From Wenzhouxiangella sp. (GTDB lineage: Bacteria > Pseudomonadota > Gammaproteobacteria > Xanthomonadales > Wenzhouxiangellaceae), in NCBI GenBank assembly GCA_007123575.1, contig SKKV01000164.1, positions 1-53,591 of the forward strand: a DNA stretch of 53,591 bases. The letters run 5' to 3'. The notes beneath the pieces are model-generated. The model made no database searches, had not been told where the DNA came from, and saw only the letters and a program-made list of their open reading frames with translations. Shown piece after piece: positions 49,139 to 52,019 of the stretch. Position 1 is the stretch's first letter. Every line of letters begins with the position of its first letter. A program made the translations under genes and the position numbers.

Positions 49139-49218
49139 AAGCCGCCCATTATATCATTGACTTACAGCGATCCACAATAACGATGGGCTTTAAAGCCCCA
49201 ACGTATCAAGGAGTCTTC

Positions 49219-49800
49219 ATGCCAGCCCTGATTCTTGCCTCCGGCTCGGTCTATCGCCGACAGATGCTGACCCGTCTGGACCTGGATTTCGACGTCATCC
49301 CGGCCAATATCGACGAATCTGCCCGGCCAGGAGAAGGCGGTCAGGCCCTGGCCGAGCGACTGAGCCTGGAGAAAGCGCTGGCCGTGGCCGGAAACTACCC
49401 GGAGGCGGTGGTCATCGGCGCCGATCAGGTCGCCGAGTGCGGCGACAGGCTGCTGGGAAAGCCCGGCACGGCCGAGCGGGCCAGGGAGCAGCTGGCCCTG
49501 GTAAGCGGTCAGACAGTGGTCTTCCACAGCGCCATGACAATGGTTCGAGGCACGCAGCGCGCGCAGGCCGTGGTACCGACAACCCTGAAGATGCGGGCGC
49601 TCAGCCCAGAGCGCATCGCTGCCTACGTGGCGCGCGACAAGCCGTTTGACTGTGCCGGCGCCATGCGCAGCGAGTCGTTTGGCGTTGCCATGGTCGAAAG
49701 CATTGAAAGCGACGACCCCACCGCCTTGATCGGGCTGCCGCTGATCCGCTGCGTGCAGATGCTCGAGCAATTCGGAATCGACTGCCTCGGCGCCGGGTAA
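49219..49800 (+). CDS. maf: Maf-family nucleotide pyrophosphatase (YceF-like)
   Basis: PALILASGSVYRRQMLTRLDLDFDVIPANIDES; VIGADQVAECGDRLLGKPGT; AGAMRSESFGVAMVESIESDDPTALIGLPL. AAGGAG Shine-Dalgarno at this start. Confidence 0.94.
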   Translation: MPALILASGSVYRRQMLTRLDLDFDVIPANIDESARPGEGGQALAERLSLEKALAVAGNYPEAVVIGADQVAECGDRLLGKPGTAERAREQLALVSGQTVVFHSAMTMVRGTQRAQAVVPTTLKMRALSPERIAAYVARDKPFDCAGAMRSESFGVAMVESIESDDPTALIGLPLIRCVQMLEQFGIDCLGAG

Positions 49801-49818
49801 TGTTAGACTGGAGCGGTA

Positions 49819-49958
49819 TTATTAAACCGGCAACGAAATACCTACGGTATTCGTTGCGCGGCATTTGCGGCGCATGTCCGCAAATGCCTTCGCTTCGCGA
49901 CCCCGGCCGTTCCGGCCGGGCATTAACCCGGCAACCTGTTTGGTTGCCGGGTTAATAA
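49819..49958. repeat. 140-bp element with about 16-bp terminal inverted repeats (15/16 match) and four consecutive hairpins
   Basis: TIR ttattaaaccggcaac / gttgccgggttaataa. Hairpins at 49830-49857, 49860-49888 (perfect 11 bp), 49902-49920 (7 bp) and 49922-49956 (perfect 15 bp). Confidence 0.7.
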
Positions 49959-50018
49959 AACCTCGGGTCCGGTGGAAATTCGGGCCTGACCATACGCACC
50001 TGAATGGAGTAATGCTGG

Positions 50019-52019
50019 ATGGCATCGGAAACTGCAGGATCGAACGGCTGGAAACACTGGCGCCTGGAATCCGATATCGACAAGGTCGCCTGGCTGTACA
50101 TCGACCGCGGCGACGAGAAGGTCAACAGCCTGGGCACGGAAGTGCTGGCCGAATTCGAACAAATCATCAGCCGACTGGAAAGCGAAAAGCCGACCGGCCT
50201 GGTCCTGATGTCGGGCAAAGCGCGCAATTTTATCGTCGGCGCCGATGTACGCGAATTCGACGCGACTGACAACGTTGCCGAGCTCGAGGAAAACGTGCGC
50301 AAGGTTCACGGCCTGTTTCAGCGCGTCGAGGACCTGCCTTTCCCCACCGTGGTTGCCTTCGAAGGCTACTGCCTGGGAGGCGGGCTGGAGCTGTCGCTGT
50401 GCTTCGACTGGCGTATCGCCCTGGACGCGGATCACACCCGGGTCGGGTTCCCCGAAGTCAACCTCGGGATTTTTCCAGGCTTTGGCGGCTCGGGCCGCTC
50501 GATCAAGGCCATGGGCGGGCTGAATGCCATGCAGATCATGCTGACCGGCAAGATGCTCAGGGCGCGGCCGGCCAAGGCGATGGGCTTGATCAACCAGACC
50601 GTGGACAAGCATGGTTCACTGCGCTGGGCGGCCCGTAACGCGGTGCTCAAGAAAAAGCGTGCCCCGAAGCCGCCGCTGAAGGCGCGCCTGACCACCTTGG
50701 GCCCGGTCCGCAAGTTTCTGGCTGGACAGATGCGCAAGCAGGTCGGCCGCAAGGCCAGGCGCGAACACTACCCGGCGCCGTATGAACTGATCGACGCGTT
50801 CGAGGCCAGCGGCAACTCGCAGGCCGCGATGATCCGGGCAGAAGGTGACAAGGTGCCGCGCCTGCTGGCCGGCGATACGTCACGCAATCTGAGGCGTGTT
50901 TTCCGGTTAATGGAAGAACTCAAGGCCCAGGGCAAGCGCAGCGATTTCAAGGCCCGGCGCGTGCATGTGATCGGCGCCGGCGTGATGGGTGGCGACATTG
51001 CTGCCTGGTGCGCGGTGCGCGGCCTGGAGGTCACCCTGCAGGACCGCGAGCTGAAATACATCGAGCCGGCGCTGAAACGCGCCAAGAGCCTGTTCAAGCG
51101 TCGCTTGAAGAAACCCGAAGCCGTGGCTGCGGCACAGTCCCGCCTGGTCGCCGATGTCGACGGCCAGGGGGTCAAGCGCGCCGACGTGATCATCGAGGCC
51201 ATTTACGAAAACCGCGACGCCAAGCGCGAGCTGTTCGAAAAGCTCAAGCCGGACCTGCAGCCCCATACCCTGTTAGCCACCAATACCTCGGCCATCCCGC
51301 TGGCCGAGCTGTCCGACGTATTCGACGATCCCAGCCGGCTCATCGGCCTGCACTTTTTCAACCCGGTGGCGCAGATGCCGCTGGTTGAAATTGTCTACGA
51401 CGAAAAATCCAACCCGGACCGGGTCAACGACGGCTCCAGTTTTGCCACCCAGATCGGCAAGTACGCGTTGCCGGTCACCTCAACTCCCGGATTTCTGGTC
51501 AATCGCGTGCTGGCGCCCTACATGCGTAATGCCATGGCCCTGCATCGCGAGGGCACGCCGCGCGAGGCCATCGACAAGGCCGCCGAGCAGTTCGGCATGC
51601 CGATGGGCCCGGTTGAGCTGGCCGACACCGTCGGCCTTGACGTGGGCCTGGGCGTGATTGAAACCCTGATGGGTGAAAGTGCGGCCGAGGACAAGAAAGT
51701 GCTGGAAAAAATGGTCAAGGCCGGCAAGAAGGGCAAGAAGACCGGCGAAGGCTTTTACCGCTGGAAGAAAGGCAAGCCGCAGCGCGATCCAAAGGCCCAC
51801 GAAGGCCATGATCTGGATGCACTGGCGGCCAAGCTGATGCAACCCTACTTTGACGAGTGCAAGGCCTGCCTGGCCGACGAGGTCGTCGAGTCCGCCGACC
51901 TGCTCGATGCCGGCATGATCTTCGGAACCGGCTTTGCGCCATTCCGGGGCGGCCCCCTGCACTACCTTGAATCCCGTGACGGCACGACCGGCACAACCGA
52001 CAACGAGGAGTCTTCCTGA
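50019..52019 (+). CDS. fadJ: Fatty-acid oxidation multifunctional enzyme, enoyl-CoA hydratase/3-hydroxyacyl-CoA dehydrogenase (FadJ-like)
   Basis: Crotonase part FPTVVAFEGYCLGGGLELSLCFDWRIALDADHTRVGFPEVNLGIFPGFGGSGR; HAD part VHVIGAGVMGGDIAAWCAVRGLEVTLQDRE; ATNTSAIPLAEL; IGLHFFNPVAQMPLVEIV. Confidence 0.92.
   Translation: MASETAGSNGWKHWRLESDIDKVAWLYIDRGDEKVNSLGTEVLAEFEQIISRLESEKPTGLVLMSGKARNFIVGADVREFDATDNVAELEENVRKVHGLFQRVEDLPFPTVVAFEGYCLGGGLELSLCFDWRIALDADHTRVGFPEVNLGIFPGFGGSGRSIKAMGGLNAMQIMLTGKMLRARPAKAMGLINQTVDKHGSLRWAARNAVLKKKRAPKPPLKARLTTLGPVRKFLAGQMRKQVGRKARREHYPAPYELIDAFEASGNSQAAMIRAEGDKVPRLLAGDTSRNLRRVFRLMEELKAQGKRSDFKARRVHVIGAGVMGGDIAAWCAVRGLEVTLQDRELKYIEPALKRAKSLFKRRLKKPEAVAAAQSRLVADVDGQGVKRADVIIEAIYENRDAKRELFEKLKPDLQPHTLLATNTSAIPLAELSDVFDDPSRLIGLHFFNPVAQMPLVEIVYDEKSNPDRVNDGSSFATQIGKYALPVTSTPGFLVNRVLAPYMRNAMALHREGTPREAIDKAAEQFGMPMGPVELADTVGLDVGLGVIETLMGESAAEDKKVLEKMVKAGKKGKKTGEGFYRWKKGKPQRDPKAHEGHDLDALAAKLMQPYFDECKACLADEVVESADLLDAGMIFGTGFAPFRGGPLHYLESRDGTTGTTDNEESS

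Follow-up and report, generated by a model that had tools for sequence, protein, structure and literature searches.

A hairpin-rich repeat upstream of fadJ in Wenzhouxiangella is very probably a non-autonomous MITE of the IS630 group

The window, by which we mean the whole stretch of 53,591 nucleotides analysed here, belongs to a Wenzhouxiangella sp. MAG of 2.84 Mb in 307 contigs (83% complete). Near its right end lie maf and a fadJ-type gene, which by their Pfam domains flank a palindromic element and share a strand, just as the preliminary description of this DNA had reported; a thiolase gene comes after fadJ. The features of this locus are the following.

49183..49800, plus strand: maf (PF02545, E 6e-49)
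49801..49809, plus strand: promoter-like box TGTTAGACT, its position conserved in relatives (TGRTAARCT); putative promoter
49820..49821, no strand: left TA target-site duplication, a single TA in empty orthologous sites
49822..49955, plus strand: MITE proper, TTAAACCGG...CCGGGTTAA, 134 bp; TIR pattern matches at 49822-49834 and 49943-49955, bounds from a 53-copy alignment and empty sites
49822..49850, plus strand: left end, IS630-derived (25/29 bp, 86%, by blastn against the IS in genome G028)
49830..49857, plus strand: hairpin 1 (one bulge), the inner part of the left end and an inverted copy thereof
49860..49888, plus strand: hairpin 2, perfect in the window copy; a widespread subfamily has TGTAGG in place of the 3' arm
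49902..49920, plus strand: hairpin 3, CCCGGCC-GGCCGGG, read from sequence and fold
49923..49955, plus strand: hairpin 4, a 33-bp palindrome (stem 49922-49956) of two IS630 ends head to head with a 5-nt loop
49928..49955, minus strand: right end, IS630-derived (28 bp at 86% by blastn against the same IS; 18/20 of the first 20 bp)
49956..49957, no strand: right TA target-site duplication
49990..50009, plus strand: fadJ leader with ribosome-binding site, CCATACGCACCTGAATGGAG, just before fadJ in most relatives
50019..52019, plus strand: fadJ-type enoyl-CoA hydratase / 3-hydroxyacyl-CoA dehydrogenase (PF00378, PF02737, PF00725)

The TIRs (49819-49834 and 49943-49958) and the four hairpins were all present in the window sequence where they had previously been placed. 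The folding energy of the element was -97 kcal/mol, as compared to -62.3 +/- 4.1 for shuffled sequences (z = -8.55), and none of 200 dinucleotide shuffles folded as well. Two details had to be revised. The 140 bp first delimited are indeed a TIR-bounded block, but the true element runs from 49822 to 49955 with the ends TTAAACC...GGGTTAA, and the outer TA dinucleotides are the target duplication. The left TIR can compete for pairing, as had been suggested; however, hairpin 4 itself supplies the right TIR as its 3' arm, so that the “alternative fold” amounts to a single competition, in which the left TIR and the 5' arm of hairpin 4 vie for that 3' arm, and not to several. The window element carries no transposase gene.

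In relatives, the conserved box (for example TGATAAGCTA or GGTAAACT) precedes CCATACGCACCTGAATGGAG and fadJ by anything from a few bases to some tens, and the maf-fadJ gap was without the element in all 27 relatives that have the two genes adjacent. Since the element is 3' of this box, it probably lies in the fadJ 5'UTR and is transcribed there. A sigma-70 consensus scan called no promoter at the TGTTAGACT box or in the element, and a scan of 49700-50100 for intrinsic terminators (a GC stem followed by a T run) found none. The segment CCATACGCACCTGAATGGAG (49990-50009) is strongly conserved across the genus; in it a CCAT..ATGG inverted repeat accompanies the ribosome-binding site, and it might serve as an operator or a small regulatory leader.

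A BLASTN search, the check originally recommended for this element, returned multiple copies in its own genome and in relatives, and empty sites were found as well. The own genome gave 22 matches to a 181-bp query, of which nine spanned 119-181 bp with 87-100% identity, and 16 of 61 relatives contained the element. With a covariance model (CM) built from 53 copies, we obtained matches in 15 of the 30 genomes of the genus and, elsewhere in the family, in 2 of 7. Counts reached 38 in one genome (others had, for example, 30, 20 and 19), and some of the matches were weak or partial. The only CM match outside the family, in G039, was weak (E 2e-4), as were the single matches in G002 and G026. Almost all of the named matches from GTDB genomes were to Wenzhouxiangella or Wenzhouxiangellaceae MAGs, and several matching MAGs seem, going by isolate names, to come from soda-lake sediment projects. 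No match was obtained in the plasmids searched, and among viral contigs there were 17 pattern matches, none with the element, which we regard as chance. A literature search returned no paper combining Wenzhouxiangella and MITE as whole words.

The copies differ in form. One common subfamily, the TGTAGG variant, has a disrupted hairpin 2, a shorter form passes from hairpin 3 straight into GGGTTAA (L063, L077 and L078), and hairpin 4 occurs alone as TA-flanked 33-bp solo copies in G016 (L251) and G020 (L240). At 134 bp, the window element is short (<300 bp), non-coding and multi-copy, as a MITE is.

Several further observations concern neighboring repeats and contigs. One contig binned as Gemmatimonadetes (L044, SLSF01000105.1) holds two MITE copies and is probably a mis-binned Wenzhouxiangella contig. 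At ~905-1015 of L021 (G000:C53), a left hairpin of unrelated sequence, starting TATTAAGGCAGTTCTGAAC.., is coupled to a right end resembling hairpin 4; this may be a further MITE family, one with mixed ends. Another dispersed repeat, likewise palindromic (GTAGCCCGGCCCAACGTGGCCGGGGACCATGCT), sits beside the MITE copy at L010 (G000:C271) and has many matches in G006, G016 and G023; with its GTAG foot it looks like a RAYT-type REP element. Finally, a short tandem-like repeat of the GGTTTACGGTTTACGGG type forms arrays with a 14-bp step in several genomes of the genus (e.g. G026:C32:13729-13825 and G014:C81:6470-6538).

Searches of relatives with joined flanks yielded empty orthologous sites for other copies. 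At site C168, G006 and G014 are empty (CAATAACT) and G000 is occupied (CAA-TA-[element]-TA-ACT). At site C52, G016 is empty (GGCGGCTAACG, GGCGGC-TAA) and G000 is occupied (GGCGGTTA-[TTAA..TTAA]-TAACA). For the window copy, no base-exact junction could be read from the orthologous maf-fadJ gaps because the intergenic spacer has diverged, and these other sites were used instead. Among 55 full copies, TA was present on the left of 40, on the right of 47 and on both sides of 37, with 18 not intact on both sides. The targets were mainly TTAA, TTAG, CTAA and CTAG, i.e. mostly TTAR/CTAR. Insertion at TA with duplication of the TA is the behaviour of the IS630 family (PMC2170065).

Solo and reversed forms were found at some of the same sites. 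Site C76 is empty in G016, while in G006 only a solo hairpin 4 is left there; at site C271, G006 likewise has a solo hairpin 4, with a loop orientation that differs from the G000 copy. The same TA of site C168 carries full elements of different subfamilies and opposite orientation in G000 (L012 766-905) and G029 (L210 1462-1601). Deletion between direct repeats, namely the left TIR and the 5' arm of hairpin 4, could account for solo forms. The loop orientation at C271 and the reversed element in G029 suggest that independent re-insertion or in-place inversion probably also occurs.

An autonomous IS630-family element with matching ends was found in G028, a congeneric, complete genome. One copy (L278 1205-2300, 1096 bp) encodes an intact 345-aa transposase, which NCBIfam NF033545 assigns to the IS630 family (E 2e-71, above cut-off), and a protein search found four intact copies in this genome. 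The ends of this copy, L278, read TTAACCCGGCAAYCAAATAG (TTAACCCGGCAACCAAATAG and TTAACCCGGCAATCAAATAG), with TA outside. The window element agrees with these ends at 17 and 18 of 20 bp, and at 86% over its left 29 bp and right 28 bp. In nearly all of the 55 copies, 15-20 of the last 20 bp agree with the IS; as background, just 4 of 50,000 window positions reach a match of at least 14/20 to the IS end. A second IS630 copy, with inverted ends TATTAACCCGGCATC... and ...GTACCGGGTTAATA, is present in G033 (L097), a genome that also has the MITE; its transposase has one internal stop. An IS630 element in G019 (L096) was rejected as a partner on account of its different inverted ends (AATAAAGCCTCAT). 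PF13358 is nearly absent from MITE-bearing genomes, the best partner sits in a genome without the MITE, and the window's own MAG, 83% complete, yielded no IS630 gene.

We conclude with high confidence that the element is a non-autonomous MITE belonging to the IS630 (Tc1/mariner-like) group and, as far as this search reached, restricted to the Wenzhouxiangellaceae, and that one of its copies landed before fadJ. Of the candidates offered in the preliminary description, this is the MITE-type mobile element, which is now supported by the number of its copies, by orthologous sites that lack it, by the TA duplications and by an autonomous IS630 sharing its ends. Sequence comparison shows repetition, insertion, TA duplication and ends in common with an IS630, while mobilisation in trans, transcription at fadJ and the lack of any regulatory role of its own are what we infer. 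In this model, an IS630-family transposase encoded elsewhere would bind the ends (TTAAnCCGGCAAY..), cut the element out and insert it at a TA, mostly within TTAR or CTAR, where the TA would be duplicated. Both ends are IS ends, each followed by an inverted copy of itself to give hairpins 1 and 4, and hairpin 4 alone is a minimal 33-bp element. The window copy inserted downstream of the promoter-like box and ahead of the fadJ leader, where it is probably transcribed and adds a structured segment to the 5'UTR. The MITE family is new, its kind already known, and a likely autonomous partner has been identified for it.

Where the ends abut genes, the insertions show a bias in reading frame. In 25 of 34 gene-abutting ends the duplicated TA occupied codon positions 1-2 of a TAA or TAG stop, as compared to 1/3 expected (p = 1.9e-6, a guide only, since the genomes that supplied the ends are related and the genes were called heuristically). 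An end TA|TTAA within TAA or TAG gives TAT TAA, which adds one tyrosine and restores termination; this is directly visible at site C52, where the orthologue ends ..MNWLGG* in G016 and ..MNWLGGY* in G000. The simplest cause of the excess is selection against other insertions. It could also be speculated that the element and its IS exploit stop codons as a safe harbour, with ends maybe maintained by this benefit and a palindromic self-copy that permits shrinkage to the 33-bp solo form, although we think this rather unlikely. The pattern provides a testable idea for the harmlessness of a TA-targeting element in GC-rich genomes.

The preliminary description had also proposed a regulatory RNA leader for the beta-oxidation pair, i.e. 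a structured cis-regulatory RNA under selection for control of fadJ and of the thiolase gene behind it. The position between a conserved promoter-like box and a conserved fadJ leader and the very stable fold would fit this proposal, and so would the covariation of hairpin pairs among copies (55 double-change cells versus 19 +/- 3 in shuffles), for which a covariance analysis had been advised. However, this covariation comes mainly from two changes in hairpin 4, inherited within subfamilies and situated in the duplicated IS ends. Moreover, mismatches between arms are as often G.T (56) as A.C (55, the other strand's G.U); a preference for G.T would be expected if selection acted on a single RNA strand, and the parity, with no strand asymmetry, argues for palindromy at the DNA level. 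The absence of the element from every orthologous maf-fadJ gap speaks against a conserved control element, as do the other copies, which lie beside unrelated genes in both orientations. All 50 copies classified with a simple codon-score gene caller were intergenic, 18 in convergent gaps and 4 in divergent ones (p = 0.004). No Rfam family reached threshold; at a low threshold the best were M23 (21.1 bits) and Pseudomon-groES (18.5 bits), both far below their gathering scores. A dedicated leader is therefore highly unlikely, and the candidate is only incidentally true of the element's position. A milder proposal is compatible with the MITE interpretation: as transcribed RNA, the element might have secondary effects on host mRNA cleavage or stability, and might alter fadJ expression as a long structured 5'UTR. 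Its location downstream of the conserved box and the precedents of ERIC and Correia elements (PMC2229807, PMC3049150) lend this some plausibility, whereas the element contains no terminator or promoter pattern and its pairing shows no strand preference; we regard such effects as possible but somewhat doubtful.

The REP type had been named alongside the MITE. Read as a REP/BIME element that a RAYT (TnpA-REP) transposase mobilises, it would fit the existence of short palindromes both alone and in composites. Nevertheless, the TA duplication and the IS630-like ends on both sides contradict this reading and make it superfluous. The element lacks a GTAG/GGAG foot, and these genomes seem to have a GTAG-type REP that is distinct from it; we consider RAYT-driven movement extremely improbable. 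As for the null case, a single-copy strong terminator accompanied by chance palindromes, its probability is negligible in view of the copy number, the homologues across the family, the fold (z = -8.6) and the lack of any terminator pattern.

These results describe a MITE family and its likely IS630 partner for a little-studied gammaproteobacterial family. They explain why hairpins recur in these MAGs, and also several of the contig breaks there, and they prevent mis-annotation of the element as RNA.

The closest known systems are other short repeats linked to insertion sequences. MITEPlu5 of Photorhabdus and ERIC (MITEEc1) are proposed MITEs similar to “CCC-type” IS630 elements (PMC6267812). 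Like the window element, they are many-copy repeats with TA duplication, strong secondary structure and IS630-resembling ends that carry CCC near the terminus, at 123-127 bp versus 134 bp here; for ERIC, the likeness is one of description. They differ in host family, and the window element has four separate hairpins and ends with inverted self-copies. RUP of Streptococcus pneumoniae, a proposed IS630-related MITE (PMC2229807), is likewise described in the cited passages as short and non-autonomous, with a TA target and TIRs that match an IS630 of its host species, IS630-Spn1 (PMC2229807, PMC3049150). RUP is 107 bp, of high copy number and from another host phylum, and those passages describe no duplicated inner ends. 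The IS630/Tc1-mariner insertion sequences themselves, IS630 and ISY100 among them, share the TA target and its duplication (PMC2170065); going by a title which that paper cites, IS630 prefers CTAG, as compared to TTAR/CTAR here. Unlike them, the window element has no transposase gene. Finally, BOX of S. pneumoniae resembles the present family in that the repeat ends provide the stop codon of the adjacent gene (36 genes there; PMC3049150). BOX, however, is linked to the ends of ISSpn2 and not to IS630 (PMC3049150), whereas the TA|TTAA of the window family regenerates the stop exactly in TAA/TAG.
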